Source of the DNA: Chryseobacterium phocaeense
GTDB taxonomy: Bacteria > Bacteroidota > Bacteroidia > Flavobacteriales > Weeksellaceae
NCBI RefSeq assembly: GCF_900169075.1
Contig: NZ_LT827014.1
Coordinates: forward strand, 310,001-374,000
DNA length: 64,000 bases
Direction of reading: 5' to 3'
In this document: piece after piece, positions 8,462 to 46,012 of the stretch
How positions within the stretch are numbered: position 1 is the stretch's first letter
How the letters are laid out: each line of letters opens with the position of its first letter
Position numbers and translations under genes: made by a program
Notes under the pieces: model-generated
Told to the model about the DNA's origin: nothing
What the model saw: the letters and a program-made list of their open reading frames with translations, nothing else
The model's database searches: none

Positions 8462-8474
8462 ATGTAGAAAAAGT

Positions 8475-8526
8475 AAAATGTCGGATGTAAAAAGTATATT
8501 GTACACTATACATTTTACTTTTTACA
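8475..8526. repeat. Imperfect palindrome in the murD-ftsW gap
   Basis: GTAAAATGT and TAAAAAGTATA on the left are mirrored by TATACATTTTAC and TTTTTAC on the right, around TTGTACAC. The words resemble those in the murC-ftsQ junction, suggesting the same repeat family. Confidence 0.55.
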
Positions 8527-8542
8527 GGAATACAGAAACAAT

Positions 8543-27412: not shown

Positions 27413-27760
27413 TGCGGAAAGGCGAAGGAAGCTGAAAAGGCTAAGAGGGCAAAAGGGTTAAAAAGCAAAATCGCAAAAAGGCTGATTTGCGAATGAGCGA
27501 ATGTACTTTCAGGCCATTGAAAATTAATGGTCTTCAAATTATCGGTGAAATTTTTTTGAGTCTAATCTAAAAGCAGTTGTGTGGCACGTTTATTCTAATT
27601 AATTCAAGATAGTCGTGCGCTAAGTTTATTCCAACAAGTACTTATATCATCATAAAAAGCAAATCCGCTCATTTGTAAATAAGCTTATTTGCCATCTTAG
27701 CCTTCTCTGCTTCCTTAGCATTTTCGCCTTTTTGCCTTTTCGCGATTTAGCCTTTCCCCT
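27413..27760. repeat. Large imperfect inverted repeat of the GGCTAAATCGCGAAA family, copy 1
   Basis: The left arm (27413-27500) contains GCGGAAAGGCGAAGGAAGC, GAAAAGGCTAAGAGGGCAAA and GCGAATGAGCG. The right arm (27657-27760), in reverse complement, has AAAGGCTAAATCGCGAAAA, GGAAGCAGAGAAGGCTAAGA and AATGAGCGGATTT in the same order. The loop is about 150 bp. It fills the space downstream of the sensor kinase gene; a related pair lies upstream of the response regulator. Confidence 0.65.
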
Positions 27761-29163
27761 CAAACCTCCTCCGGTCTCGTGCTGTAGAAATTCGGGAACC
27801 TCATCTGTACCGTAGTTCCCTGGTTCTCATAAGAGCTCACAATCAGTTCGCCCTGATGCATTCTTACAATATTTCTGGCCAGAGGAAGCCCGATTCCGTA
27901 GCCTTCGTAGTTTTTGGTATTGGAGGCCCTGAAGAATGGGTCATAGATTTTGTTCATTTCTTCCTCAGGAATCCCGATTCCGAAATCTTTTACAATAATA
28001 TAGACATCTGTATCTGTGGCACCCAGCGAAACTTTTACCTGCTGGAAATTAGAATATTTGCAGCCGTTATTGATGATATTGGCTACCGCAAGATGCAGCA
28101 ACTGCTCGTTGCCCTGTACTTTTAGTTTTTTGGGATTATCAGGAAGCATGCTGATATCCAGATAAATATTGTTACGTGAGTCTATTTTCCGTAAAGTCTC
28201 AATTACATCCCAAAGCAGCTGGTCTATTCTTACCTTATCCATTTTCTGGATTTTTCCGTCGAAACCGGTCTGCGCGATCATCAATAAGGCTTTGATCTTT
28301 TTATCAAGCTTCTCCGCTTCATCCAGGATAATTTCCAGGGTATCTTTGTATTCATCTGTCGTTCTGTTGATAGAAAGCGCTACGTCTGCTTCCCCCATGA
28401 TGGAAGTCAGGGGTGTTCTCAGTTCATGGGAAACATTTCCGATCAGATGGTTCTGGGTTTCAAATGACGTTTCTATGCGGTTCAGCATTCCGTTAAAAGT
28501 ATCCACCAGTTCATTCAGCTCTTTATTATCAGGCTGGGGTTCCAATCTCAGGTGAAGATTTTCGGAGCTGATCTCTTTTACTTTTCCTGTAATTTTTAAA
28601 ATAGGTTTAAACAAGGTTTTAGACAGATAAAAAGAAAAGATCATACTGAAAAACAGGGAAAGTACGATGCAGGTCACCAGCGTTCTCTTTAAAAACCCGA
28701 GATAATAGATTACGTAATGGTTCTTGGCAGAAGCGATGGCAATATAATCTTTATCATCATATTTAAAAGTCTGGCCGATATAATAAAATTCTTTATCATT
28801 ATAATTGGCTTCTCCTTTTTTCACGATACTTTTAAAGAAATAATCCGGGATATGGACTTCCTGTGAAATCTTTTTGAAATTGGAATCCGTGGGAATGGCA
28901 AAAACATAATCCCTTTCCATCGGAAGTTCTTCGTCGTTCAGACTGTTGAGGATGTAGTTTTCCGGAAGATCCAGATGGTCTTTGCTCTTTTCAATCTGAA
29001 CAATGGTGGCCGTACGGATCTTCAGCAGTTCATAAAATCTCTGATGTGAAAAGTTGACAATAGAGAAGTAAACCAATCCACTGAACAGCAGAATGATGAC
29101 CGTAAATACCAGCATCAGGAGCACCATGGTTTTGGTCTGGTTGGTGATCACTTTGTTAAACAT
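27760..29163 (-). CDS. Sensor histidine kinase (HAMP-HisKA-HATPase)
   Basis: A 467-residue membrane kinase: membrane segments at about 15-37 and 155-180 enclose a periplasmic sensor domain of about 115 residues, followed by HAMP, a HisKA domain with the phospho-acceptor His246 (NVSHELRTPLTSI) and an HATPase_c domain (NIINNGCKYS, VKDFGIGIP, GYGIGLPLARNIV). It starts 3 bp after the response regulator stop, forming one operon. The layout resembles metal- or envelope-responsive CusS-type kinases; the signal is not deducible. Confidence 0.94.
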   Translation of the reverse strand: MFNKVITNQTKTMVLLMLVFTVIILLFSGLVYFSIVNFSHQRFYELLKIRTATIVQIEKSKDHLDLPENYILNSLNDEELPMERDYVFAIPTDSNFKKISQEVHIPDYFFKSIVKKGEANYNDKEFYYIGQTFKYDDKDYIAIASAKNHYVIYYLGFLKRTLVTCIVLSLFFSMIFSFYLSKTLFKPILKITGKVKEISSENLHLRLEPQPDNKELNELVDTFNGMLNRIETSFETQNHLIGNVSHELRTPLTSIMGEADVALSINRTTDEYKDTLEIILDEAEKLDKKIKALLMIAQTGFDGKIQKMDKVRIDQLLWDVIETLRKIDSRNNIYLDISMLPDNPKKLKVQGNEQLLHLAVANIINNGCKYSNFQQVKVSLGATDTDVYIIVKDFGIGIPEEEMNKIYDPFFRASNTKNYEGYGIGLPLARNIVRMHQGELIVSSYENQGTTVQMRFPNFYSTRPEEV

Positions 29164-29166
29164 CCG

Positions 29167-29874
29167 TTAAGGTTTTTTCATTACGTATCCCATTCCTATT
29201 ACGGTATGGATCAGCTTATTATCTTCCTGGCTATCCAGTTTTTTTCTTAAATAATTTACATACACATCCACCACATTGGTTCCCAGCTCATAATTCACGC
29301 CCCATACCGCATCCAGGATTTCAGCCCGGGAAATTACTTTCTCGGGGTTGTTCAGAAAATAGAGCAGAAGTTTATATTCTGTAGAAGTCAGTGTAATTTC
29401 CTCTCCCGCACGGGTCACCTTTTTCGTATAGTCGTTAAGGATCAGATCTGAGAACTGAAACACATGTTCATTATCCGGTTCAGGTTCAATAATTTCCTGG
29501 GAACCATTCCCGTTACTTCTTCTCAAAAGCGATTTTACCCGGGCTACCAGTTCAATAAATTTGAACGGTTTTACCAGATAATCATCTCCGCCACTTTCCA
29601 GGCCCAGAACAATATTTTCAGAAGTTCCCAGTGCAGTTAAAAAAAGTATAGGAACATGCTGATTGGTCTTCCTGATTTCTTTGCATACATCCAGCCCATT
29701 CATTTCCGGAAGCATAATATCCAGAACCACAAGATCAAAATCATTGGCCTGTACCAGCTGCACGCCTGTACGCCCGTCAAAAGCTACGGAAACTTCATAA
29801 CCACTTTCCTGAAGTCCTTTCTTAATAAAGGAGACTACACTGGTTTCGTCTTCAATAAGGATAATTTTTTTCAT
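29167..29874 (-). CDS. OmpR/PhoB-type response regulator
   Basis: A 235-residue two-domain regulator: receiver domain with acidic pair Glu8/Asp9, phospho-acceptor Asp52 (VVLDIMLPE) and Lys in YLVKPF, then a winged-helix Trans_reg_C domain (LTSTEYKLLLYFLNNPEKVISR, VVDVYVNYLRKKL). The start MKKIILIEDE at 29874 is preferred to an ATG 18 bp upstream. A promoter with both elements is visible just upstream. Confidence 0.95.
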   Translation of the reverse strand: MKKIILIEDETSVVSFIKKGLQESGYEVSVAFDGRTGVQLVQANDFDLVVLDIMLPEMNGLDVCKEIRKTNQHVPILFLTALGTSENIVLGLESGGDDYLVKPFKFIELVARVKSLLRRSNGNGSQEIIEPEPDNEHVFQFSDLILNDYTKKVTRAGEEITLTSTEYKLLLYFLNNPEKVISRAEILDAVWGVNYELGTNVVDVYVNYLRKKLDSQEDNKLIHTVIGMGYVMKKP

Positions 29875-29891
29875 GAGGATGAGGAATTTCA

Positions 29892-29922
29892 CAAAAATAA
29901 GGGAAAAGGGTGAGAAGGCAAA
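29892..29922 (-). promoter_or_regulatory. Bacteroidetes-type promoter of the two-component operon
   Basis: On the minus strand TTTG (29919-29922), 19 bp, then TATTTTTG (29892-29899), ending 17 bp before the regulator start. The upstream box falls within the edge of a repeat element. Confidence 0.72.
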
Positions 29923-30150
29923 ATGGATTGAAAAGCGGAAAGGCTAAATCGCGAAAGGGCAAAAAGGCGAAGGGAGCGAAGAAGGCAAATAAGTGGCTTA
30001 TTATTTCTGCAGCTTGGATATTTACAGAAGCTGTTTAATCCTCAACCCAAATTTCAATTAATTGCACCCATCCATTTGCAAATTTGCCCTTTCGCGATTT
30101 AGCCTTTTCTCCCCTTTGCCATCTCAGCCTTCTTCGCTTCCTTCGTCTTC
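29905..30150. repeat. Imperfect inverted repeat of the GGCTAAATCGCGAAA family, copy 2
   Basis: The left arm (29905-30000) holds GGCTAAATCGCGAAAGGGCA and GCGAAGAAGGCAAATAAG. The right arm (30058-30150), in reverse complement, holds GGCTAAATCGCGAAAGGGCA and GCGAAGAAGGC as well. The same words occur in the element at 27413-27760, so the two copies bracket the two-component operon. Confidence 0.68.
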
Positions 30151-30210
30151 CCCAATAACAATTTTCAATGAATTGATTCCCCACCATACCCAAGCTATAT
30201 AGAATAATAT

Positions 30211-30218
30211 TAACTTTG
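30211..30218 (+). promoter_or_regulatory. Candidate -7 element for the XRE-cupin regulator
   Basis: TAACTTTG fits TAnnTTTG and lies 56 bp before the start codon. No TTTG box at the usual distance. Confidence 0.5.
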
Positions 30219-30274
30219 CTTTTCATCATACATATATAATGAAGAAAAATAATTTAGGTTAAATTGTAAACACT

Positions 30275-30844
30275 ATGAATGATTTTTTAATAGGTATCGG
30301 TAAAAGACTGAAAGATATCAGGAAAAAGAATAATTTAACCATCAACGAGCTGGCTTCCAAAGCCAATGTGAGCAACGGCCTTGTTTCCAGGATTGAGAAT
30401 GGAAGAACAATTCCGTCACTTCCGGTATTGCTTGATATGATCCAGTCGCTGGAAATTGATGCCAGTTATTTCTTTGAAGGCGTTGAGAAGAAATCCAGCG
30501 CCAAGTTCATCTATCTCCCGAAGGACAGCCAGCAGTTTATTGAAAAGGAAGTGGAAGCTGAGGGGTTTAAATATATGCATATCTTCAGCAAAAGCCTCCA
30601 TTCTTTAGGATTCGAAGCGGTGTTGCTTACCCTGGAGCCCAATTCCAAAAGGGAAAAAGTGATTACTGATGCCTGGGAATTCAAATATGTTCTCAAAGGA
30701 GAAGTAAAATATATCATAGATAATGAGGAAATTATTTTAGAAGAAGGAGATTCGCTTTATTTTAACGGAAAATTTCCACACGTTCCGGTGAGCATCAGTA
30801 ATGAAAGCTGTGTAATGCTTGTTCTTTATTTTTATACGGCATAG
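30275..30844 (+). CDS. XRE-family transcriptional regulator with C-terminal cupin domain
   Basis: A 189-residue regulator: HTH_XRE at about residues 8-62 (LTINELASKANVSNGLVSRIENGRTIPSL) joined to a small cupin-2 barrel at about 110-185 (EFKYVLKGEVKYIIDNEEI, LEEGDSLYFNGKFPH). Such proteins sense a small ligand in the cupin and repress or activate neighbouring transport and catabolic genes. It stands 548 bp before the TonB-receptor operon in the same direction and is the obvious candidate regulator of it. Confidence 0.9.
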   Translation: MNDFLIGIGKRLKDIRKKNNLTINELASKANVSNGLVSRIENGRTIPSLPVLLDMIQSLEIDASYFFEGVEKKSSAKFIYLPKDSQQFIEKEVEAEGFKYMHIFSKSLHSLGFEAVLLTLEPNSKREKVITDAWEFKYVLKGEVKYIIDNEEIILEEGDSLYFNGKFPHVPVSISNESCVMLVLYFYTA

Positions 30845-31392
30845 AACTGTTTATTTTTCAAACGTAAAGATTTACATGTATGATCTATTATTTCAGGGGG
30901 TAAAGATTTCACCTACCTTTAATTAATCTATGCTTATACGTTTTCTTGATCAGATCAATCAAAGATTGATTCTTTCTTTGTAACCTTAAATATCAAGTGG
31001 CAGGATTAATCTTGGTGTATTTTAAAAGACTTCCCATTTTAATATTTTGACTTCTTACTTCTCATCTATTTTGTGCTTCACCGGTGCATAATTTTACAAA
31101 TATGCAACTTTTGATATTCCGGTTTTTCCGAAAATGAACGGAATATTAATCAAAATACATCTGTTTTCTAAAAATTTCTTATCTCAATTATGTAAAGAAT
31201 TATTTACAAAAACGTCAAAATAACGACTTATAAGCCTGTTTCCCCTGTTTTTCACACGATAATTTCTACCTTCTTCAAAGTAAAATACAGGTAACAAACA
31301 GAGCTTATTTGTTAAACAATACTTAATACGAAATATTTATATATATTAAAATTATTAGCTTGTTTTGCAATGAAAATTTAATATATGTAAAA
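30845..31392 (+). promoter_or_regulatory. Long regulatory interval before the TonB-receptor operon, with candidate operator
   Basis: 548 bp without a supportable gene. It contains an exact 13-base palindrome TTGATC-A-GATCAA (30946-30958), followed at once by AATCA-AAGAT-TGATT. XRE proteins bind such dyads, so these are candidate operators for the cupin regulator; this is inference. I found no exact TAnnTTTG match near the receptor start. Confidence 0.4.
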
Positions 31393-34218
31393 ATGAAGAC
31401 CCAATTAGAGAAATTACTTACCCTTGCTTTTTTGTGTTTGATCTTTTTTGTGTCAGCACAAAAGCAGTTAATTATAGGAACTGTTTTTGACGACAACCAG
31501 CCTCTTCCCGGCGCGTCAGTTAAAATAAACGGTTTATCAAAAAATACAGCAACTGATATCGATGGAAAATTTACATTCAATGATATCAAAGAAGGACAAT
31601 ATCATCTACAGATCAGTTATATTGGTTATGAAACGTCTGATATTGACATAGAAGTGAAATCCGGGGAAACGGTGGATCTTGGAGCTGTAAAACTATCCCA
31701 GCAGAGAAAAAACATTGACGAAGTTGTCGTAACCGGAACTTTGAAAAATACGGAAGCGAGAGCTTTAAATCTTCAAAAAAACGCGGTAAATATCACCAAT
31801 GTCATTGCATCAGACGGAATCGGAAAGCTTCCGGACAGAAATGCGGCTGAAACGGTTCAGCGTGTTCAGGGTGTTTCTATTGAACGGGATCAGGGCGAAG
31901 GAAGATTTGTTTCACTAAGAGGACTTCCGCCATTCTGGGCCTCTACTACCATCAACGGAAACAGACTTCCTACCGCAGAAGAAGAAACCACATCCAGAGC
32001 AACAGCTTTTGATTTTTTCCCTACTGAACTCATTTCCTACGTTCATGTCAACAAGTCTTTCACTCCGGATATGGAAGCCGATGGAATAGGTGGCGGCGTG
32101 AACTTCATTACCAAAACACCACCGATGAAAACAGAGTTCAAAGCAACGCTGGGAAGCGGTTACAATGCTAAATCTGACAAAGGTGTTTATAACCTTGGTT
32201 TACTTTACGGAGGCAGGACAAAGGATAAAAAATTCGGGTACTTATTCAATGTGGCCCACTTTATCAGAAACTGGTCTACCGATAATTTTGAAGCGAGAAG
32301 AAGCGGTGATGAAGGTGTTTTCAGAATGGAACTTCGTGATTATAACGGAGTCAGAAAAACAACCGGTGTAAATGCGGCTTTTGAATACGTGCTTTCTCCA
32401 AAGAATACATTTTATCTGAAGGGAATGTACGGAACGCTTTCAGATGATGAAACCCACTATAAACACAGGATCAGATTTGATAAATTCAGTGCAGCCAATA
32501 ATACGGCAAGAGTAGAGCTTCAGAATATCCATAACCTTCTGATCACAGAGCTTACTTCTGTTTCACTAGGTGGAATCCATACTTTAAACAAAGGGAAAAT
32601 CGACTGGGATTTATCCTATTATGACAACCGCTTTAAATACGGAAATATTCCGGATAAGCAGAACAATTCTTATTATGTGATCAAATACACCCAATCCGGT
32701 GTAGGCATCAATCCTGATTATATTTCCGATCATGGAAACGGTCCAAGAGCCTATTGGAAAGCAGACGGCGGAAAATTAGACTATAAAAACCCGGATGCCT
32801 TATTTGGATTCTACAGCGATCCGAATTTTAAAATGGATGCTTCCCAGATGAGATTTACCGACCTTGAATTCTACAAAGTTTTTGTGGAGGAAAAAGACAA
32901 GATTGTCGCAGCTTTCAACCACGAAATCAATACGTCTGATAAGCTGACCTTAAAATACGGTTTCAAATACAGGGACAAGGAAAGAAATGCAAGATTCTCC
33001 GATATTTTCTACAACTGGAACGGAGGAACTGCCCCGCTGCTTTCGGATTACGCTCCCTATATCACCACTCAGCCGAATGGTCCAAAATACTTAAGCGAAA
33101 TGAACGCCCACATCGGAAATACATTCGGGCCTGTATTGTCTACTACAGGAATGGATCAGTTCTGGTTCCAGAACCAGGGAAACCTGAAGATCAACCCGGC
33201 AGATTCCGAAGCACTGGAATACAATAAGGCATTGGGTAGAAACTTCGATGTTTTTGAAAAGCATGCTGATGCGTATGGAATGGGAACTTATAAACTGAAT
33301 GACAAGATCATTATTTTAGGAGGAATCAGGTTATCCAATACCAATACAAAAGTACAGGGTTATAATGTGATAGACAATGTTCCTACTCCGGTAGAGCACA
33401 CCAAGAATTATCTCGCCGTACTTCCAATGTTACATATTAAATACACCTTAAACGATAAAACCAATCTGCGTTTTGCCGCCACACGGACTTTTTCAAGACC
33501 CAATTTCGGGGATCTGACGCCAGGTGGAACTTATATTGAAGCGGATAATGAATTCAAAGGAGGGAATCCCAACCTTAATCCAACCTATTCTTTAAACTTT
33601 GACCTGATGGGAGAATATTATTTCTCAAATGTGGGGATTGTAAGCGGAGGTGTTTTCTATAAATCCATCACAGATCCTATTTTTCAGGATTCCTTTATCG
33701 GAAGCTACAACGGGATGAACGGGGTGCAGTTTACAGCACCGAACAATGGAAAAGCAGCCTGGCTGGGAGGTATTGAACTTGGAATCAATAAGAGATTTGA
33801 TTTCCTTCCGGGATTCCTGCAATATTTCGGATCCCAGGTGAATGCCACTTTCATGACTTCTGAAATGGAAAAGCCAAGCGGAAGAACAGTAGCACTTCCT
33901 TATCAGGCCAAAGAGCTTTATAACGTACAGCTTTTCTTTGAGAAGAAAGGATTCAATGCGAGGCTTGCATACAATTACAAAGGAAAGTATGCGGTAGAAT
34001 ATGCAGAGGATGATATCAATGATTCTTACTATGGAAAATACAGCAGTCTGGATTTCGGAGGATCTTATCAGTTCACCAAACACCTGATGCTCTATGCTGA
34101 TGTAAACAATATCCTGAACAAACCATTAATCTATCATTTCGGGAAGAACGAAGAACGTCCGGAGCAGGTAGAATATTATGGCGTACGATGTAACCTGGGA
34201 ATAAAACTGAACTTTTAA
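31393..34218 (+). CDS. TonB-dependent outer-membrane receptor (TIGR01782-like)
   Basis: A 941-residue receptor. After a signal peptide (about 1-23, ending VSAQ) come a carboxypeptidase-regulatory-like domain (GTVFDDNQPLPGASVKI) at 25-105, a plug domain (VVVTGTLKNTEARAL; RNAAETVQRVQGVSIERDQ; ADGIGGGVNFITKTP), and a long beta barrel ending in GIKLNF with a terminal Phe. An ATG at 31360 would place 11 polar residues before the signal peptide, so 31393 is chosen. It is first in a tight operon with a transporter, an oxidase and a HAD hydrolase, which suggests its ligand is an organophosphonate or a conjugate of one. Confidence 0.92.
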   Translation: MKTQLEKLLTLAFLCLIFFVSAQKQLIIGTVFDDNQPLPGASVKINGLSKNTATDIDGKFTFNDIKEGQYHLQISYIGYETSDIDIEVKSGETVDLGAVKLSQQRKNIDEVVVTGTLKNTEARALNLQKNAVNITNVIASDGIGKLPDRNAAETVQRVQGVSIERDQGEGRFVSLRGLPPFWASTTINGNRLPTAEEETTSRATAFDFFPTELISYVHVNKSFTPDMEADGIGGGVNFITKTPPMKTEFKATLGSGYNAKSDKGVYNLGLLYGGRTKDKKFGYLFNVAHFIRNWSTDNFEARRSGDEGVFRMELRDYNGVRKTTGVNAAFEYVLSPKNTFYLKGMYGTLSDDETHYKHRIRFDKFSAANNTARVELQNIHNLLITELTSVSLGGIHTLNKGKIDWDLSYYDNRFKYGNIPDKQNNSYYVIKYTQSGVGINPDYISDHGNGPRAYWKADGGKLDYKNPDALFGFYSDPNFKMDASQMRFTDLEFYKVFVEEKDKIVAAFNHEINTSDKLTLKYGFKYRDKERNARFSDIFYNWNGGTAPLLSDYAPYITTQPNGPKYLSEMNAHIGNTFGPVLSTTGMDQFWFQNQGNLKINPADSEALEYNKALGRNFDVFEKHADAYGMGTYKLNDKIIILGGIRLSNTNTKVQGYNVIDNVPTPVEHTKNYLAVLPMLHIKYTLNDKTNLRFAATRTFSRPNFGDLTPGGTYIEADNEFKGGNPNLNPTYSLNFDLMGEYYFSNVGIVSGGVFYKSITDPIFQDSFIGSYNGMNGVQFTAPNNGKAAWLGGIELGINKRFDFLPGFLQYFGSQVNATFMTSEMEKPSGRTVALPYQAKELYNVQLFFEKKGFNARLAYNYKGKYAVEYAEDDINDSYYGKYSSLDFGGSYQFTKHLMLYADVNNILNKPLIYHFGKNEERPEQVEYYGVRCNLGIKLNF

Positions 34219-34228
34219 AATCTCCTTA

Positions 34229-35527
34229 ATGACTCAAGGCATCAACAAAAAAACACTGGTAACACTGAAGGCTGCATTAGCCGCTTTCGGTGTTTACTTC
34301 TGCATGTATGGTTTCCGCAAGCCTTTTACGGTAGCTTCTTTTGAAGGGCTCTCCTATTTTGGGGTAGATTATAAGATCCTGATCATCATAGCCCAGGCGG
34401 TCGGTTATTTTATTTCAAAATTCATAGGGATTAAATTTATTTCGGAGCTGAAACCGGAAAAAAGAATTACGTACTTATTGGCAAGTATTGCCGTGGCAGA
34501 GCTGGCTTTACTTGGATTTGCAGCAGTTCCTGCTCCTTATAATATTGTTTTCATGTTCATCAATGGTATTCCCCTTGGTATGATTTGGGGCATTGTATTC
34601 TCTTATATTGAGGGGCGGAAAACCACAGAGATTATCGGGCTTTTCCTATGTTCAAGCTTTGTGGTATCGTCCGGATTTACAAAATCTACAGGGAAATTCT
34701 TAATGGATCATTTTCCGGTGTCAGAGTTCTGGATGCCCTTCTGCACAGGATTAGTATTTATCATTCCTTTAATTATTTTTGCTTTTCTTCTGGAAAGAAT
34801 TCCCAGGCCTACGGAAGAAGATATTCTGCTTAAAACCAAAAGGCAGCCTTTAAACGGGATGGAAAGAAAAAAGCTGATCCGCCGGTTTTTCGTTCCTATT
34901 GTCTGCATTATCTTCCTGTACGTCTGTTTAACTATTTTAAGAGATTTCAGGGATAATTTTAACCGGGAGATCTGGGACGGGCTGAATTTTACGCTGGATA
35001 GTTCTATTTTCACCTTAACAGAGATTCCTATTGCCGTTATGGTTCTTCTGATCCTAAGCTTTATGGTTAAAGTGAAAAACAACAAAAAGGCTTTTGCCTA
35101 TTACCATTATATCTTATTTGGTGGTATTCTGATGGTCGGTCTTTCAACCTACTTATTCCAAAACGGAGCTTTATCTCCGTTCCTGTGGATGATGGTTTCC
35201 GGATTTGGAATGTATATCTGCTACATTCCTTTTAACGGAATTTATTTTGACCGGATGATCGCTGCTTTCGATATCAAAGGAAATGTAGGATTTCTGACCT
35301 ATACCGTAGATTCTTTTGGCTATCTGGGAAGCGTCCTCATCCTGCTTTACAAAAACTTTGGATCATCACAGACTTCCTGGCTTAATTTTTATATTCATCT
35401 GAATTATATTATCACAGCCGTTGTTTTTATACTTTCGGTTACGGCTTTTTTAGCCTTCAGGAAAAAAGAAAAACCGAAATCAAACTCTAACCCATTCATT
35501 AATTTCGATACGTCGAAAATTTTATAA
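34229..35527 (+). CDS. DUF5690 family MFS-type transporter
   Basis: A 432-residue polytopic protein with 11-12 membrane segments. It opens with KAALAAFGVYFCMYGFRKPF, the same MYxFRKPF-type motif seen in organophosphate:phosphate antiporters, and matches the DUF5690 family as I know it from Bacteroidetes. Placed 10 bp after the receptor and 12 bp before the oxidase, it probably carries the ligand across the inner membrane. No ABC phosphonate transporter is present in the window. Confidence 0.82.
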   Translation: MTQGINKKTLVTLKAALAAFGVYFCMYGFRKPFTVASFEGLSYFGVDYKILIIIAQAVGYFISKFIGIKFISELKPEKRITYLLASIAVAELALLGFAAVPAPYNIVFMFINGIPLGMIWGIVFSYIEGRKTTEIIGLFLCSSFVVSSGFTKSTGKFLMDHFPVSEFWMPFCTGLVFIIPLIIFAFLLERIPRPTEEDILLKTKRQPLNGMERKKLIRRFFVPIVCIIFLYVCLTILRDFRDNFNREIWDGLNFTLDSSIFTLTEIPIAVMVLLILSFMVKVKNNKKAFAYYHYILFGGILMVGLSTYLFQNGALSPFLWMMVSGFGMYICYIPFNGIYFDRMIAAFDIKGNVGFLTYTVDSFGYLGSVLILLYKNFGSSQTSWLNFYIHLNYIITAVVFILSVTAFLAFRKKEKPKSNSNPFINFDTSKIL

Positions 35528-35539
35528 ACTCAAGTAACA

Positions 35540-36694
35540 ATGACAACAAAATTTGATTTAATCGTTGTAGGAGGAGGTATTTTAGGTACATTTCATGCCT
35601 ATCATGCCCTAAATAAAGGTCTTTCGGTAGCTTTACTGGAAAGAAACTCCGTGCCACAAGGAGCAACGGTAAGAAATTTCGGCCAGGTGGTTCCCTCCGG
35701 AATGGATCTTAAATGGCAGAACTTCGGAAGAGAAAGTCTCGCTATCTACAATGAACTCCATGATCAGGCAGATCTTACCATAAGAAAAAACGGTTCCGTA
35801 TATATCGCCTCTAATGATGAGGAAATTCAGCTTATTGAAGAGCTGTACGAAATCAACAGAAATAATGATTACGAATCGGTTCTGTTATCAAAGAACGACT
35901 GCATCAAGAAATTCGACGGGCTCCGTTCGGATTATTGTAAAGCCGGTCTCTTTTTCCCGCAGGAACTTTCGGTGGATTCGGCAGATATGATTGTAAAGCT
36001 TCATCAGCTTCTCCGCGAGAAACTGGGATTGCAGATTTACTACAATACCACCATCATCGAAACCGGGGAAAACGGGCAGCACTGTACCGCCATAAGTTCG
36101 GAAGGAACTGAATTTACCGCATCGAAGATCATTATCTGTGGTGGTCATGAATTCAAAACATTATATCCTAAAGTATTTGACGAGAGCGATTTAGAAGTGA
36201 GTAAGCTGCAGATGCTGCAGACGAAGCCGCAGGGTATTTATTCGCTTCAGGGAAATATCCTTACCGGGCTTTCCATCAGAAGATATGAGTCATTCAGTGA
36301 ATGTGCTTCCTATCAGAAAATCAAATCATCAGAAGACCCGAAATCATTTGAGAAAAAGTTCGGGGTACATATTTTATTCAAACAGGCCCTTGACGGCTCT
36401 GTTATCCTGGGAGATTCCCATGAATATGCGGATGCTAAAAATGCAGATGATCTGGGCTATGACCTGAATATGGAAATCGATGAATTCATGATCCATGAAG
36501 CTAAGAAAATCATTGATCTTCCAACCTATGAAATCCAGAGAAGATGGTTCGGGGTGTATTCCCAGTGCAAAACGAAAGATATTTTTGAGCACAGCCCTTC
36601 CGCGAATATCCACATTGTAACGGGTATCGGAGGGAAAGGAATGACGGGAAGCGGTGGCTTTTCAAAATTTAATATAGATAAAATTTACGCATAA
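35540..36694 (+). CDS. TIGR03364-type FAD-dependent oxidoreductase (aminophosphonate oxidase candidate)
   Basis: A 384-residue DAO-type flavoenzyme with the dinucleotide loop VVGGGILG (about 9-16), the family-typical QGATVRNFGQVVPSG at about 39-53 and a C-terminal GIGGKGMTGSGG that closes on FAD. TIGR03364 proteins are known to occur beside TIGR03351 phosphonatase-like hydrolases, and related enzymes oxidise 2-aminoethylphosphonate-type amines to phosphonoacetaldehyde. Whether this one prefers the free, N-methyl or hydroxy form cannot be read from sequence. It lies 7 bp before the hydrolase gene. Confidence 0.9.
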   Translation: MTTKFDLIVVGGGILGTFHAYHALNKGLSVALLERNSVPQGATVRNFGQVVPSGMDLKWQNFGRESLAIYNELHDQADLTIRKNGSVYIASNDEEIQLIEELYEINRNNDYESVLLSKNDCIKKFDGLRSDYCKAGLFFPQELSVDSADMIVKLHQLLREKLGLQIYYNTTIIETGENGQHCTAISSEGTEFTASKIIICGGHEFKTLYPKVFDESDLEVSKLQMLQTKPQGIYSLQGNILTGLSIRRYESFSECASYQKIKSSEDPKSFEKKFGVHILFKQALDGSVILGDSHEYADAKNADDLGYDLNMEIDEFMIHEAKKIIDLPTYEIQRRWFGVYSQCKTKDIFEHSPSANIHIVTGIGGKGMTGSGGFSKFNIDKIYA

Positions 36695-36701
36695 AAATTC
36701 A

Positions 36702-37370
36702 ATGAAGAATATAGAATTACTGGTTCTGGATATGGCCGGAACAACAATTAATGAAGATAATGTAGTGTATAAAACTTTAACGGCTGCTGTTAATAACCAC
36801 GGCTACCAGGTGACGTTGGATAAGGTTCTTTCCAGCTGTGCGGGGATGGAGAAGCTGGAAGCCATCACCAGCCTGCTGAAGGAAATCAACGGCAATGAAG
36901 CAGATGCTCCCGTTATTTTCCAAGACTTTTCAGAACAGCTAAAGGAAGCTTACCGGGGTCTTGATGTAAAACCTATCAATGGGACTGAAAATTTTCTGCT
37001 GAAAATGAAATCCATGAACAAAATAGTGGTCCTGAATACTGGTTATACATCCGAAATCGCCCGTCAGCTTTTAGATAAATTACAGTGGAAGGAATCTATC
37101 CATTTTGATGCACTGATTACGGCTGATGATGTTTCTGAAAGCCGTCCAAGTCCTGAAATGATCTATCTTGCCATGAAGAAATTCAATATCAGTGAACCTG
37201 GTAACGTTTTAAAAGCCGGTGATTCTGTTATAGATATTGAAGAGGGAAAAAATGCAGGCTGCGGACTTACGGTTGCGGTTCTTTCCGGCGCACAAAACAG
37301 GACTGAACTGGAAACCGCACATCCGGATTATATTTTTAATACAATTTCTGAGGCTGAAGATATACTTTAA
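36702..37370 (+). CDS. Phosphonatase-like HAD hydrolase (TIGR03351 type)
   Basis: A 222-residue HAD hydrolase. The first motif is LDMAGTT: nucleophile Asp10, but Ala12 where phosphatases of the family have a second Asp. Phosphonoacetaldehyde hydrolase (PhnX) shows the same Asp-x-Ala-Gly-Thr pattern. Lys51 in CAGMEKLEAI sits where PhnX has its Schiff-base lysine in the cap domain. Further motifs are LNTGYT (motif II) and KAGDSVIDIEEGKNAGC (motif IV). It probably splits the C-P bond of the aldehyde made by the upstream oxidase. Confidence 0.88.
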   Translation: MKNIELLVLDMAGTTINEDNVVYKTLTAAVNNHGYQVTLDKVLSSCAGMEKLEAITSLLKEINGNEADAPVIFQDFSEQLKEAYRGLDVKPINGTENFLLKMKSMNKIVVLNTGYTSEIARQLLDKLQWKESIHFDALITADDVSESRPSPEMIYLAMKKFNISEPGNVLKAGDSVIDIEEGKNAGCGLTVAVLSGAQNRTELETAHPDYIFNTISEAEDIL

Positions 37371-37698
37371 ACTCTTCTTTCAAATTATACTTACTTTATT
37401 TCAGCCTCATTTTTTAATTTTTAAAAATCAGTCACCTTAATGTCGTGATGTTTAGTTCTACTGTAAATTAAGACTGCAAATGAACCACTAATGGCACTAA
37501 TATATTCACAAATATCACCAATATTAGTCGTGTAATTCGTGAATACATTAGTGCTATTTGTTTTTTAAAACATATAATGATTTAATTATCAATTAATTAA
37601 CTTTAAATTCACATATGTTTACAAATAGTAAATTAATTTTACAACAGTTAAAAATAAATTACTATTTGTAAATATTCTTTTTTAAATCATTTATCCCC
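37371..37698. repeat. Intergenic interval with imperfect inverted repeat before the phosphodiesterase gene
   Basis: No gene is seen. CACTAATGGCACTAATATATT, with CACAAATATCACCAATATTAGT (about 37488-37530), is mirrored by ATTAGTCGTGTAATTCGTG and AATACATTAGTGCTATTTG (about 37525-37562). The remaining bases up to 37698 are AT-rich and probably contain the promoter of the next gene, though no exact TAnnTTTG was found. Confidence 0.55.
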
Positions 37699-39552
37699 AT
37701 GAAAACAAAACTCTTCTCAATGGCCGTTCTTGTGAGCTGTTTATTTAGTGCTCAGAAGAAAAAAGTTCTTTTTATCGGTATCGACGGATGCCGGGCAGAT
37801 GTTATGATGTCCAGCAACATTCCAAACATCCAAAGTCTTGTTAACCAATCCATTTACTCGATAGATGGACTCTGTGCAGCCACTACATGGAGCGGAAACG
37901 GATGGAGCACCATGCTTACAGGCGTATGGCATACCAAGCACAACGTTCAGGACAATAGCTTTACGAGTCCGAACTATGCAAACTATCCTGATTTTTTAAC
38001 CCGGGCAGAAACGTACAACCCGAACTTAAAGACCATTTCTCTGGCTCACTGGGCACCCATTAACGACAAAATAGTACAGAATGCAGATGTGCAAACCAAC
38101 CTGGATTCAGACCTGGCGGTTAAAAATGCAGCCGTTTCTGCGCTCCAGACTGACAATCCTGATATTCTTTTTGTAGATTTTGATGATGTAGACCACGCCG
38201 GACATTCCTACGGCTTTGCCTCTACTGTTCCGCAGTATGTTTCTGCGATCCAGACAACCGATTCATATATTGGTGCAATCGTGTCTGCCATGAAAAACAG
38301 ACCAACCTATAACAATGAAGACTGGCTTGTGGTTTTAACGACGGATCATGGTGCCATTCAAAGTTCCCATGGCGGCGGAAACCTTTCTGAACGTAATATT
38401 TTCACAGTATATTCCAATCCGGGATTCACGCCACAGCAAATCAGCAAAACGGTTCTGGAATCCAGTAAAACCTTTAACCAGCTGAGCTTTCCGGCAGGCA
38501 CTTACGCAAAACCGGCCAACCAGACGCCATTCAATTTCGGAGCCAATCAGGACTTCACCGTTGAATTCTGGGTGAAACCTAATGCCTCCTACTCCAGCGA
38601 CCCCGTAATGATCAGCAATAAGAACTGGGCCAACGGAAAAAATAAAGGTTTTGTGATTTCTGGATATTCCGGGCAGACTTTTAAACTGAATATCGGAGAT
38701 GGAACCAACAGAATTGATCTTGTTGGCGGAAAAGTGGAAACCAATAAATGGAAGCATATTGCGGTGAGCTTCGATCGTGATGGGCTTGTTACCTTGTATG
38801 AAGACGGAGTTCCGGTAACATTCGCTAAAATGAATACGATCGGAAACATTGACTCCGGCCTGCCTCTGACGATCAACCAGGATGGAACCAATACCTACGG
38901 TGAAAATCTTGCGGCAGCATACAAAGACATCAGGATCTGGAAATCCTCCCTTCCTAATTCTGTAATTGTGAACTGGGCGAATCAAAATATTACTTCTTCA
39001 CATCCATATTATGCGCAGCTACTGGCTGACTGGAAATGTAATGGAACCTCAGGAAACACGGTAGCAGATTCAGGCCCGAATGCGAATAACCTTGCAATAA
39101 CTGGATCTCCTGCTTATGCTGCCGGAACAACGAACACATTTAAAATTTATGATTATACCTCAACCACAAGAGAAACGGACCATCTTCCGACGGTTCTCAA
39201 CTGGATGTGTATTCCTGTACAGGCATCATGGGGTATTGACGGGGTAAACAGAATTCCTGTATGTACCAACGGAAGCTTATCTGCCAAAGAAACCATTAAA
39301 ACAGCTGATGATTTTAAGATTTATCCCAATCCGGCTTCTGAGACTTTACATATACAGTATCAGTCTGATGAAAAGGAAGTTAAAGCAGAAATCATTGATG
39401 GTAAGGGACTCACGGTTTCAGTAAAGAATCTAAAATCAGGTAACGGATCATTTAACGAAAAAATGGATATCCGCGGGCTTCCGGCAGGAGTGTATTTCCT
39501 TAAAATGACGGGAAGTAATAAGTCTCAGACTAAATCCTTCATCAGGAAATAA
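37699..39552 (+). CDS. Secreted alkaline-phosphatase-superfamily phosphodiesterase with internal LamG domain and T9SS tail
   Basis: A 617-residue exported enzyme. Signal peptide about 1-18; then a type I phosphodiesterase/nucleotide pyrophosphatase core with metal Asp29 (IGIDGCRAD), a nucleophile region TTWSGNGWSTMLTG (Thr63 or Ser65), DFDDVDHAGHSYG and LTTDHGA. A LamG-like domain (about 265-450) is followed by TRETDHLPTVLNWM, which looks like the last metal-His segment of the same catalytic domain, so LamG is inserted inside it. A type IX sorting domain (KIYPNPASETLHI) ends the protein. It may free phosphonate from lipids or glycans at the cell surface. Confidence 0.88.
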   Translation: MKTKLFSMAVLVSCLFSAQKKKVLFIGIDGCRADVMMSSNIPNIQSLVNQSIYSIDGLCAATTWSGNGWSTMLTGVWHTKHNVQDNSFTSPNYANYPDFLTRAETYNPNLKTISLAHWAPINDKIVQNADVQTNLDSDLAVKNAAVSALQTDNPDILFVDFDDVDHAGHSYGFASTVPQYVSAIQTTDSYIGAIVSAMKNRPTYNNEDWLVVLTTDHGAIQSSHGGGNLSERNIFTVYSNPGFTPQQISKTVLESSKTFNQLSFPAGTYAKPANQTPFNFGANQDFTVEFWVKPNASYSSDPVMISNKNWANGKNKGFVISGYSGQTFKLNIGDGTNRIDLVGGKVETNKWKHIAVSFDRDGLVTLYEDGVPVTFAKMNTIGNIDSGLPLTINQDGTNTYGENLAAAYKDIRIWKSSLPNSVIVNWANQNITSSHPYYAQLLADWKCNGTSGNTVADSGPNANNLAITGSPAYAAGTTNTFKIYDYTSTTRETDHLPTVLNWMCIPVQASWGIDGVNRIPVCTNGSLSAKETIKTADDFKIYPNPASETLHIQYQSDEKEVKAEIIDGKGLTVSVKNLKSGNGSFNEKMDIRGLPAGVYFLKMTGSNKSQTKSFIRK

Positions 39553-39581
39553 GACAGTAAAGCAATTAGATTTAATTTTTT

Positions 39582-39629
39582 GATATTAGAACAAGGATAT
39601 TTTCATCCGAGTTCTAATATCTTTTTTTT
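39582..39629 (+). terminator. Rho-independent terminator after the phosphodiesterase gene
   Basis: An 11-bp stem (GATATTAGAAC with GTTCTAATATC) and an 18-base loop run into eight or nine T. It lies between convergent genes and touches the stop of the GNAT gene. Confidence 0.88.
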
Positions 39630-40114
39630 TAACCATTAAGTTCCAGGAGCATTTGTGTATCACAGCGGGCATACGCTGAATCTGAAACGGGCATATGCTT
39701 AAAACCTAATTTTTCATACAGTTTAATTGCAGGAACCAGTACGGAATTGGCTTCCAGGAAAATGCTTTCCGCCTCTAATTCCCGGGCTTTATCTACCAGC
39801 GCCTGCCCTACCAGATAACCAATCTTCTTTCCCTGCGCCTTAGGACTTACCGCCATTTTTGACAGTTCAAACTTCAGAGGTTCATCAGACAGTTTCACCA
39901 AAGCGCAGGTTCCTACGGGCTCATTATTTAAAAGGGCAAAGACAATGTGTCCTCCTTTATGGATAATATGTTCTTCCGGGTGGTCCAGCAGTTTATAATC
40001 ACCTTCCTCCATCCTGAAAAAAGTTTTGATCCATTCCTCATTTAATGCTTTGAAAGCTTCTTTATACTGGGGATCATAGTTTATAATTTGTACTTCATTA
40101 TTCATTTCATTCAT
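39629..40114 (-). CDS. GNAT family N-acetyltransferase
   Basis: A 161-residue acetyltransferase with the acetyl-CoA motif A (LSKMAVSPKAQGKKIGYLVGQAL, giving the Q/R-x-x-G-x-G/A-like loop QGKKIG) and the motif B segment ANSVLVPAIKLYEKLGF. Acetylates an unknown amine. A second ATG at 40105 is an equal start candidate. It is a single-gene unit between two terminator or repeat-like regions. Confidence 0.9.
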   Translation of the reverse strand: MNEMNNEVQIINYDPQYKEAFKALNEEWIKTFFRMEEGDYKLLDHPEEHIIHKGGHIVFALLNNEPVGTCALVKLSDEPLKFELSKMAVSPKAQGKKIGYLVGQALVDKARELEAESIFLEANSVLVPAIKLYEKLGFKHMPVSDSAYARCDTQMLLELNG

Positions 40115-40335
40115 CCTTATAAGGTTTAATTTACGTTACTATATATTTTCCAGAGGTTTCTCCACGTTCTTCATGTTCTCCACTTAAAGCGAAGCTCATC
40201 TTAATATTCTTAAAACCTTAAAACTCCTTAATGTTTCAAAACCAAATAAATAATATTAAGACTAAAGTGCCCTTCTGTTTTCAATATGAGCCTCCTAAAA
40301 TCATTAAAGTGTTCAAAATTTTTGCAATTTTCAGG

Positions 40336-41760
40336 TCAATTCCCCGAAATCCTGTTTTTCACCAGTTTTGCTAATTTTTCAAGATCACTTTCCACCCTGT
40401 CCGTCCATTCCAGGGCATAATTCAACCGCATACAGTTCTGGTACTGGTTATACTGTGAAAACATTCTCCCCGGCGCAAAACTTATGTTGTGGCTCATCGC
40501 CTCGTCATACAGGTCTTCCGTACAGATCCTTTTATCCAGTTCCAGCCAGAGCATAAATCCTCCTTTGGGTTCTGAAATTTTGGTATTATCCGGGAAATAC
40601 TGGGTAACCGACTTCTGGATCTGGAGATAATTGGCATACAGCTTTTTCCGGAATGTCCTCAGGTGATGGTCATAGCGCCCGTGCTCAAGAAAATCCGCAA
40701 TCACATCTGAATACAGTGAAGGGCTGCAGACGGTCTGTACCAGCTTCTGCCGGATCACTTTTTCCTTGAACTTTCCGGGAGCCACCCATCCTACACGGTA
40801 ACCCGGCGCCAGTGCTTTTGACACAGATCCTATCCACATTACAAGCCCGGCTTCATCATAGAATTTACACGGTTTAGGTCTTTCCGCTCCGAAATACAGG
40901 TTGCCATAAATATCATCCTCAATCAGAGGAACATTGTATTCAGTGATCAGTCTTACCAGTTCTTTTTTCTTATCATCCGGCATCTGGAATCCCAGCGGGT
41001 TATTGAAATTCGTTACAAAACAGCAGGCAGAAAGAGAGGGCAGCGCTTTTTTCAGTGCGTCAAGATCTACCCCGTAAATAGGGTGGGTGGGAATTTCCAC
41101 CACTTTCAGCCCCAATTGCTGGATGGCCTGAAGTACTCCAAAATAAACAGGGCTTTCCACTGCTACGGAATCTCCGGGTTTCGTTACCGCCATAAGGCAG
41201 GTATACACCGCATTCATCGCTCCTGAGGTGATCACCAGATCATCTTCTGAGATTTTTCCTTCCAGCACCATAGCCCATTTGGCCGCTTCCCGGCGGAGGT
41301 ACTCATTTCCCTGTACCGGCTCATAATCTGTGCCGCTGTCATTTTTTCTTTTGATCACATTGATCATGCATTTCTTCAGCTTAGCGAGAGGAAGGAAACT
41401 CTTTCCCGGAATTCCCAGTGCAAACTGGGTAACATCCGTCCCGTCAATGGTTCCGAATACTTTAGTGATGAGATCTTCAGGGGTATTTTTCTTTTCCGCC
41501 AGTTTGATCTGGGCTACAGATGGCAGGGCCAGTTTTCTTTGTGAGGTCTGACTTACAAAATACCCGTATTTCGGGCGTGATTCCACCAGAGAACGGCTTT
41601 CCAGCTCCATATAGGCCTGCTTTACCGTGTTCAGGCTTACATTGTACAGTTTCTGGGCACTTCTCAACGATGGCAGCCTGTCGCCAAACTGCAGCGTATC
41701 GCTTTTAATCTGTTCTGTAACAGATTTTGCTATTTTAAGGTAGAGAACATCTTTTGACAT
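40336..41760 (-). CDS. MocR-type regulator (GntR HTH fused to PLP aminotransferase domain)
   Basis: A 474-residue fusion of an N-terminal GntR winged helix (LPSLRSAQKLYNVSLNTVKQAY) with a fold-type I aminotransferase domain; the PLP lysine is in GSVSKALAPGYRVGW and the substrate-binding motifs TSGAMNAVYTCL and DDIYGNLYF are present. Family members such as PdxR and GabR sense PLP or amino acids to control adjacent genes. The gene upstream on the same strand is an orphan, so the target is unclear. Confidence 0.93.
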   Translation of the reverse strand: MSKDVLYLKIAKSVTEQIKSDTLQFGDRLPSLRSAQKLYNVSLNTVKQAYMELESRSLVESRPKYGYFVSQTSQRKLALPSVAQIKLAEKKNTPEDLITKVFGTIDGTDVTQFALGIPGKSFLPLAKLKKCMINVIKRKNDSGTDYEPVQGNEYLRREAAKWAMVLEGKISEDDLVITSGAMNAVYTCLMAVTKPGDSVAVESPVYFGVLQAIQQLGLKVVEIPTHPIYGVDLDALKKALPSLSACCFVTNFNNPLGFQMPDDKKKELVRLITEYNVPLIEDDIYGNLYFGAERPKPCKFYDEAGLVMWIGSVSKALAPGYRVGWVAPGKFKEKVIRQKLVQTVCSPSLYSDVIADFLEHGRYDHHLRTFRKKLYANYLQIQKSVTQYFPDNTKISEPKGGFMLWLELDKRICTEDLYDEAMSHNISFAPGRMFSQYNQYQNCMRLNYALEWTDRVESDLEKLAKLVKNRISGN

Positions 41761-45517: not shown

Positions 45518-45525
45518 TCGCAAAG

Positions 45526-45607
45526 TGCGGATGAAGGGACTCGAACCCCCACGCCTCGCGGCACCAGATCCTAAGTCTGGCGTGGCTACCAATTACACCA
45601 CATCCGC
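45526..45607 (-). tRNA. tRNA-Leu (anticodon TAG), copy A
   Basis: 82 nt including the discriminator base. Acceptor GCGGATG/CATCCGC, anticodon stem CCAGA/TCTGG with loop CTTAGGA, a long class II variable arm and T loop GTTCGAGTC. It differs from copy B at one position in the variable arm. It has its own promoter and terminator. Confidence 0.96.
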
Positions 45608-45645
45608 AGAATTTTAATAAAAGAACTGTTTTCTTTTTGTGGCTA

Positions 45646-45676
45646 CAAATATATAACTTTTCGCCGGAAAACAAAA
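45646..45676 (-). promoter_or_regulatory. Promoter of tRNA-Leu copy A
   Basis: Minus strand TTTG (45672-45675), 18 bp, TATATTTG (45646-45653), 38 bp before the tRNA. Confidence 0.75.
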
Positions 45677-45726
45677 TAAATCTCAGCAAACATGCCTTAA
45701 TAAACAAATTTAAACCTTTTAAACTA

Positions 45727-45757
45727 AAAAACTCTCTATTTAAAAAACAGAGAGTTT
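45727..45757 (-). terminator. Terminator after the three-tRNA cluster
   Basis: AAAACTCTC pairs with GAGAGTTTT, A/T-rich flanks, located 3 bp after tRNA-Leu (TAA) on the minus strand. It separates this cluster from the distal tRNA-Leu. Confidence 0.78.
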
Positions 45758-45759
45758 TA

Positions 45760-45844
45760 GTACCCCAGACGGGACTTGAACCCGTACGTCCTTACGGACA
45801 CAGGATTTTAAGTCCTGCGTGTCTACCAGTTCCACCACCAGGGC
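45760..45844 (-). tRNA. tRNA-Leu (anticodon TAA)
   Basis: 85 nt with the discriminator. Anticodon stem CAGGA/TCCTG with loop CTTAAAA, long variable arm (GTCCGTAAGGAC), T arm ACGGGTTCAAGTCCCGT. The acceptor stem contains several G-U pairs (GCCCTGG with CTGGGGT). Confidence 0.95.
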
Positions 45845-45853
45845 ATGGTGTGG

Positions 45854-45926
45854 AGCGAAAAACGGGATTCGAACCCGCGACCCCAACCTTGGCAAGGTTG
45901 TGCTCTACCAGCTGAGCTATTTTCGC
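45854..45926 (-). tRNA. tRNA-Gly (anticodon GCC)
   Basis: 73 nt. Acceptor GCGAAAA/TTTTCGC, D arm with AGCTCAGCTGGTAGAGC, anticodon stem CAACC/GGTTG with loop TTGCCAA, T arm GCGGGTTCGAATCCCGT. Confidence 0.96.
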
Positions 45927-45930
45927 ATAG

Positions 45931-46012
45931 TGCGGATGAAGGGACTCGAACCCCCACGCCTCACGGCACCAGATCCTAAGTCTGGCGTGGCTACCAATTA
46001 CACCACATCCGC
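45931..46012 (-). tRNA. tRNA-Leu (anticodon TAG), copy B
   Basis: 82 nt, nearly identical to 45526-45607 and first in the three-tRNA transcript. Same TAG anticodon loop and class II arm. Confidence 0.96.

Follow-up and report, generated by a model that had tools for sequence, protein, structure and literature searches.

Several described systems resemble parts of the locus reported here, a group of six genes between positions 30275 and 39552 of a stretch of 64,000 nucleotides from Chryseobacterium phocaeense (contig NZ_LT827014.1, positions 310,001 to 374,000; this whole stretch is called the window). The phnWX and phnRSTUVWX operons share its predicted final step, the hydrolysis of phosphonoacetaldehyde, whereas the window locus holds neither PhnW nor an ABC transporter, has an oxidase in place of the transaminase and adds a TonB receptor. 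In the accessible text of PMC10590968, the PbfD oxidoreductases (PbfD1 from Acinetobacter baumannii, PbfD2 from M. fucicola) are similar in belonging to TIGR03364, the family given there for PbfD1, and in clusters for oxidative deamination with phnX present and phnW absent; a surface or DUF5690 step is not described there, and the accessible main text holds no words starting with Bacteroid, TonB or DUF5690. AepP of Pseudomonas putida BIRD-1, according to the accessible text of PMC8316502 also reported in a Bacteroidetes strain, is a GlpT-related permease of the major facilitator superfamily (MFS) for uptake of 2-aminoethylphosphonate (AEP), while all that links the DUF5690 protein of the window to GlpT-like proteins is its fold, a pair of aligned arginines and its place in the cluster, sequence searches giving no such link. 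Flavobacterium PusCD combines a SusCD/TonB receptor with phosphoesterases; in the accessible text of PMC8115612 it forms part of a low-phosphate regulon, and the enzymes, DUF5690 and an XRE-cupin gene with its palindrome are not worked out, whereas the TonB receptor of the window locus stands on its own, with no SusD. Polysaccharide utilisation loci, finally, likewise bring together a secreted hydrolase, a TonB-dependent receptor, an inner-membrane permease, catabolic enzymes and a local regulator; compared with these, the window locus has a predicted phosphorus substrate and no glycoside hydrolase among the ten genes scanned (positions 27760 to 41760, the range of all family scans around the locus).

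We consider it likely that the locus is a substrate-induced aminophosphonate utilisation system, which would cut, import, oxidise and split C–P compounds. Comparative genomics gives good support to the aminophosphonate interpretation, and we infer from gene content both that the system is complete and what its substrate would be. The initial annotation had proposed such a system, and its outer-membrane, MFS, oxidase and phosphonatase-like steps are borne out by comparative genomics; its claim that an oxidase replacing PhnW is novel does not hold, since this step has been published as PbfD (PMC10590968, accessible text). From the accessible text of the respective papers, the use of PbfD for PhnW (PMC10590968), a GlpT-type AEP permease (PMC8316502) and PusCD beside phosphonate-degrading enzymes (PMC8115612) are already known, while the assignment of DUF5690 as a likely permease for aminophosphonates, the palindrome common to several genes and the architecture as a whole are probably new. 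A literature search, with most subscription papers and preprints outside its coverage and some sources accessible in part, retrieved no DUF5690 phosphonate permease, XRE-cupin/palindrome regulon or surface-to-cytosol aminophosphonate locus, and a full-text search for 'DUF5690' and 'PF18943' with the same coverage retrieved no paper on the family. The features of the locus, including members of the haloacid dehalogenase (HAD) superfamily and of the nucleotide pyrophosphatase/phosphodiesterase (NPP) type and a tag for the type IX secretion system (T9SS), are as follows:

30275..30844, + strand: XRE-cupin transcriptional regulator, the predicted local regulator (HTH_3 47.9 bits, Cupin_2 45.5 bits)
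31089..31111, no strand: candidate operator before the receptor operon (degenerate palindrome copy, 13/18)
31360..34218, + strand: TonB-dependent outer-membrane receptor (TIGR01782 492.9 bits, cut-off 310; Plug and barrel Pfam domains)
34229..35527, + strand: DUF5690 12-helix MFS-fold protein, predicted aminophosphonate permease (PF18943 550.1 bits, cut-off 25)
35540..36694, + strand: TIGR03364 (PbfD/HpnW-type) FAD amine oxidase (399.9 bits, cut-off 285.1)
36702..37370, + strand: HAD-superfamily hydrolase, predicted to be a PhnX-like phosphonatase (201.3 bits for TIGR03351, below its cut-off of 218.9)
37614..37636, no strand: candidate operator 1 before the phosphodiesterase gene (palindrome, 13/18)
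37654..37676, no strand: candidate operator 2 before the phosphodiesterase gene (palindrome, 13/18)
37699..39552, + strand: T9SS-tagged NPP-type phosphodiesterase with LamG_3 and DUF4983 domains (PF01663 65.9, PF13385 66.4, PF16356 45.0, TIGR04183 41.9 bits)

The six + strand genes, their order and the spacings of 10, 12 and 7 bp between receptor, DUF5690, oxidase and HAD genes are all as first annotated, and 328 bp separate the HAD gene from the phosphodiesterase gene. The open reading frame (ORF) of the receptor starts with TTG at 31360, the likely start being ATG 31393, where a signal-peptide-like reading begins. The order XRE, receptor, DUF5690, oxidase, HAD, phosphodiesterase goes beyond chance: of 67 named loci, 66 with Chryseobacterium titles and one with a Flavobacterium title, 57 retain it. 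Among the other ten, four (L048, L061, L066, L067) lack only a phosphodiesterase match, four (L042, L059, L064, L072) lack the XRE gene and partly other genes, each locus being cut by a contig end, and the Flavobacterium locus (L071) carries the XRE gene on the far side and the opposite strand. In the remaining one, L075 from Chryseobacterium sp. E1, no receptor, DUF5690 or oxidase match covers over half the length, though it was retrieved via its oxidase, possibly owing to frameshifts in the record. The nearest relatives of the locus are found in Chryseobacterium. Only two of the seven same-genus genomes in our survey, the window's own included, hold DUF5690, oxidase and HAD, and five hold none of the three, so the locus is accessory.

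Co-occurrence and gene neighbourhoods across Bacteroidota

The survey covered 395 Bacteroidota genomes, searched for the four families DUF5690 (42 genomes over cut-off, 43 at E 1e-3), TIGR03364 (33 at E 1e-50, 32 over cut-off), TIGR03351 (29 at 1e-30) and PhnW (13 over cut-off, 20 at 1e-60). In agreement with the co-occurrence of TIGR03364 and TIGR03351-type families assumed in the initial annotation, 27 genomes are common to the 33 with the oxidase and the 29 with the HAD hydrolase. DUF5690 accompanies the oxidase in 30 of 33 genomes, the HAD in 28 of 29 and PhnW in nine, where Fisher tests on co-occurrence take as independent genomes that are in fact related. Of the 33 genomes with the oxidase, 26 lack PhnW over cut-off, which would be expected of an enzyme able to take over the role of PhnW; the accessible text of PMC10590968 likewise treats PhnW as replaceable and notes that the FCB group has PbfD homologs.

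To describe the neighbourhoods, 57 loci were fetched and clustered: all 46 with a DUF5690 match that passes the cut-off and lies outside the window, plus 11 more with an oxidase or HAD match. The 47 DUF5690 places over cut-off yielded 46 called genes, counting the window and leaving out L097 (genome G014), where the ORF caller missed the DUF5690 gene and where PhnW and PbfA adjoin. Two matches under cut-off (in G272, and the second one in G379) lie outside the fetched set. In L130, the ORF caller also missed two genes of genome G179, for the HAD and for PhnW, which are known from family searches.

This neighbourhood survey, which the initial annotation had named as a check, placed 33 of the 46 called DUF5690 genes near an aminophosphonate gene (TIGR03364, PhnX or PhnX-like, PhnW, PhnY, PhnA, PbfA or Phn-HD). 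A preliminary count of 35 of 46 was corrected, as L113 holds a GABA transaminase and L096 PaaZ. Representatives of the neighbouring clusters score over cut-off for PhnW (485 bits, cut-off 401), the phosphonoacetaldehyde dehydrogenase PhnY (665, cut-off 636), the phosphonoacetate hydrolase PhnA (496, cut-off 408) and PbfA (630, cut-off 525), and slightly below it for Phn-HD (214.1, cut-off 214.6); the HAD of L120 is a canonical PhnX (328 bits, cut-off 220). The PbfA cluster is mixed: the scan covered 12 of the 13 members (all but L130), of which nine are PbfA over cut-off (L094, L095, L097, L099, L102, L126, L128, the second of two copies in L083 and the first of two in L129) and three are not (L113, the first copy in L083 and the second in L129). 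Further recurring neighbours are a large TonB receptor that has a SusD-like_2 partner, an MFS permease whose representative matches PgtP best (163 bits, under cut-off 408) and an alkaline-phosphatase-superfamily metalloenzyme (representative Pfam Metalloenzyme, 32.6 bits). A protein of about 361 residues from this last superfamily is found in 13 of these loci (L089:16653-17741 and 12 relatives).

The 33 loci with a phosphonate gene differ from the 13 without: a SusC/SusD/TonB gene occurs in 24 versus one, a phosphoesterase-type gene in 22 versus one, and the XRE-cupin cluster in 21 versus none.

The shared palindrome and the predicted surface step

Between the XRE and receptor genes lies a conserved palindrome, AAAGTTTAC-N5-GTAAACTTT, whose best site reaches at least 15/18 in 58 of 62 such gaps versus one of 1240 shuffles, a comparison that is no independent test because the motif was derived from the same 62 gaps. 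Independent tests are given by loci of other genera and by the gaps between HAD and phosphodiesterase genes. In the 21 XRE-cupin loci, 20 of them extrageneric, nine sites of at least 15/18 were found upstream of cluster genes in seven loci, versus 0.07 expected, and the rest of these loci, the window included, holds a single such site in 388 kb. For the HAD–phosphodiesterase gaps of the Chryseobacterium set, a site of at least 14/18 is present in 44 of 61, versus 28 of 1220 shuffles, which ties the separate phosphodiesterase gene to the operon. Recurrence of the palindrome before receptor and phosphodiesterase genes suggests that both belong to one regulon, in which the XRE-cupin protein would bind the palindrome.

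Several observations weigh against such a regulon. No site of at least 15/18 is held by 14 of the 21 XRE loci, two such sites occur in the 36 loci without an XRE cluster, the window's own copies match only 13/18, and a shorter form of the palindrome is not enriched genome-wide (seven sites versus nine for the reversed control). Protein and palindrome are, moreover, linked by their co-occurrence alone. An alternative operator, the inverted repeat TGCAT-N-ATGCA at 31085, was rejected, being present in one of the 62 aligned gaps and at 37 places in the genome, and a scan for sigma-70 promoters and terminators gave sites no more numerous than in shuffles. In genome G261, a PhnX-like HAD gene (L131:8314-8994) lies more than 2 Mb from the DUF5690-oxidase cluster and has a 15/18 palindrome 37 bp upstream, as if it were a remote member of the regulon. 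L101 carries at the regulator position a gene for 217 residues without Pfam match at 1e-6.

The dedicated XRE-cupin gene and the conserved palindrome accompanying the locus argue against control by PhoBR, as in a PUS-type system that responds to phosphate starvation rather than to a substrate. Such control would fit the Flavobacterium PusCD clusters, which in the accessible text of PMC8115612 are induced by low phosphate and co-localised with phosphoesterases and phosphonate-degrading enzymes; AepP, however, supports phosphate-insensitive growth on AEP (PMC8316502, accessible text), and we regard the starvation model as unlikely.

For the substrate-induced system, the surface step would involve receptor and phosphodiesterase. 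The window receptor is of the lone TIGR01782 type, found in six of the 33 DUF5690-phosphonate loci, with SusC and/or SusD instead in 18. No SusD was detected among the ten genes scanned, while six SusD-like genes over cut-off lie elsewhere in the genome. The phosphodiesterase ends in a C-terminal sorting domain (TIGR04183 41.9 bits, cut-off 23; PF18962 55.7), and all 16 relatives share its residues S65, D29, D165, H169, D216, H217 and H224 unchanged. S65 aligns, within a weak stretch, with the nucleophile position of NPP enzymes, a threonine that we take to be catalytic. This assignment is weakened by the N-terminal NPP alignment of only 9.3 bits and by a poor structure model (pLDDT 59.6), whose Foldseek matches to NPP enzymes we count as no more than consistent with the match by sequence. 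That the separate secreted enzyme belongs to the system, as first annotated, is supported by its co-occurrence in 12 of the 33 loci together with the shared palindrome.

DUF5690 as candidate permease and the catabolic enzymes

The AlphaFold2 model of the DUF5690 protein (pLDDT 90.7) displays a 12-helix MFS fold and matches MFS structures over its whole length. G6PT/SLC37A4 takes Foldseek ranks 1–3 and VIA ranks 1–2, with other MFS proteins within 1 to 2 Z units, so that the model appears to resemble glucose-6-phosphate exchangers with a narrow lead over other MFS folds. R30 and R238 are invariant in all 46 DUF5690 proteins. Through a weak alignment, they correspond to R46 and R268 in L128, an OPA protein, and these to R28 and K240 of SLC37A4. 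OPA transporters such as GlpT, UhpT, G6PT and AepP presumably bind phosphate through two basic residues on helices 1 and 7. One relative, P0004, has a general MFS_1 domain. The gene lies within 200 bp of the oxidase gene on the same strand in 19 of 24 cases, and in all four genomes with PhnW over cut-off and without DUF5690 a PgtP/GlpT-like permease is found in or beside the cluster. Because of the OPA-like fold, the invariant arginines and this swapping with PgtP/GlpT-like permeases, we propose DUF5690 as inner-membrane AEP carrier, and thus probably a new candidate aminophosphonate permease.

Other results speak against this assignment. The folds of the D-galactonate symporter, sialin and SPNS2 lie within 2 Z units of the best match; sequence comparison with OPA proteins gave no PDB match at E 10, no NCBIfam match and an hhalign probability of 3%. 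The family as a whole does not serve phosphonates alone, since 13 of 46 DUF5690 genes, mostly from two subclades, lack a phosphonate gene nearby, and since neither the oxidase (E 1e-50) nor the HAD (1e-30) nor PhnW over cut-off was found in seven of the 42 genomes with DUF5690. The subclades without phosphonate neighbour (L080, L096, L100, L103, L104, L105, L109; L108, L110, L113, L115) probably have another organophosphate substrate. These genes, and a fold match that leaves the substrate undefined, would also fit a protein that moved another organophosphate in the window locus too, or exported a product, with aminophosphonates entering by another route; given the tight operon links to the oxidase and the PgtP/GlpT-like permeases in PhnW genomes, we judge this improbable. 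In L118, the DUF5690 gene adjoins a DAO-type FAD oxidoreductase gene (7560-8786), which has no NCBIfam match at 1e-40, is not a clear TIGR03364 member and possibly represents another group of aminophosphonate oxidases.

The window oxidase, a DAO-fold protein, belongs by its sequence score to TIGR03364, as first annotated, and thus to the family whose annotation A. baumannii PbfD1 carries (PMC10590968, accessible text). From the same source, PbfC and PbfD oxidise N-methyl-AEP (M1AEP) to phosphonoacetaldehyde, and PbfD2, whose efficiency with AEP is about 4-fold lower, substitutes for PhnW. A phosphonatase-type gene adjoins the oxidase gene 7 bp downstream. The classification of its product as TIGR03351-type had to be revised to a phosphonatase-like HAD, since its score stays under that cut-off, which is passed in nine of the 29 survey genomes found at 1e-30; for the canonical PhnX family TIGR01422 it reaches 97.2 bits, below the cut-off of 220. 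D10, T14, K51, R148, D174 and D178 are invariant in 29 of 29 relatives and aligned with PhnX from the PDB, where we take them to correspond to the nucleophile (D10), the Schiff-base lysine (K51), an arginine (R148) and the C-terminal aspartate pair (D174, D178). Genome searches supported the noted lack of PhnW and of an ABC transporter: PhnW gave no match at E 1e-60, and at E 1e-3 neither PF13343 nor the PhnD family yielded a binding protein. PhnJ was also not found in them, and the PhnX cut-off was reached by no protein of the genome, the window HAD being the better of two matches.

The gene data fit AEP, M1AEP or another aminophosphonate alike as substrate of these enzymes. With 1-hydroxy-2-aminoethylphosphonate or another substituted aminophosphonate, the oxidase would form hydroxyphosphonoacetaldehyde, to be split by the HAD. 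The annotation text of TIGR03364, as quoted in the accessible part of PMC10590968, points this way, as do the divergence of the HAD subclade from canonical PhnX and the PbfA and Phn-HD neighbours in relatives, which suggest handling of hydroxy-AEP-type substrates too. Since characterised PbfD enzymes yield phosphonoacetaldehyde from M1AEP or AEP (PMC10590968, accessible text) and neither PbfA nor Phn-HD is among the ten genes scanned, we consider this option rather improbable. An ordinary amino-acid or sarcosine-type oxidase beside a generic HAD phosphatase, to which the DAO fold and weak matches to glycine oxidase and sarcosine oxidase could point, is very unlikely in view of the TIGR03364 score far above cut-off, the phosphonatase lysine retained in 29 of 29 HADs and the PhnW, PhnY, PhnA, PbfA and PhnX neighbours of relatives.

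Elsewhere in the window, at 45525-46012, lie four consecutive tRNA genes (Leu, Leu, Gly, Leu), one anticodon being used twice.

Proposed mechanism and implications

We propose a model in which the T9SS phosphodiesterase would hydrolyse a phosphonate ester, e.g. a phosphonolipid head group or phosphonoglycan, at the cell surface, a step suggested because of its NPP-type active site and the shared palindrome. Passage of the product, or of a small ester, through the outer membrane would fall to the TonB receptor, and passage of AEP or N-methyl-AEP through the inner membrane to DUF5690, which may work as an exchanger with phosphate. As judged from the characterised PbfD enzymes, the TIGR03364 oxidase would use O2 to convert N-methyl-AEP or AEP to phosphonoacetaldehyde, methylamine or ammonia, and H2O2; the HAD hydrolase, with lysine K51 and nucleophile D10, would then cleave the C–P bond by analogy with PhnX, releasing phosphate and acetaldehyde. 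The XRE-cupin protein may control receptor operon and phosphodiesterase via the palindrome.

More tentatively, and with somewhat less than even confidence, DUF5690 proteins could be OPA-like aminophosphonate:phosphate exchangers which, together with SusCD/TonB receptors, surface phosphodiesterases and the XRE-cupin operator, make up a phylum-wide class of loci that strip phosphonate head groups at the cell surface and mineralise these whether or not phosphate is in supply. According to PMC10590968 (accessible text), no natural phosphonate is more abundant than AEP, and a 2023 review presumes phosphonate entry to the periplasm via porins such as PhoE, with no TonB words in its accessible main text (PMC10574752). 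If the proposed system is correct, soil and plant-associated Bacteroidota would actively import phosphonates, freeing them from lipids or polymers at the cell surface. DUF5690 would gain a function, and the locus would provide a signature by which phosphonate mineralisers without PhnW, C–P lyase or known binding-protein transporters could be found.

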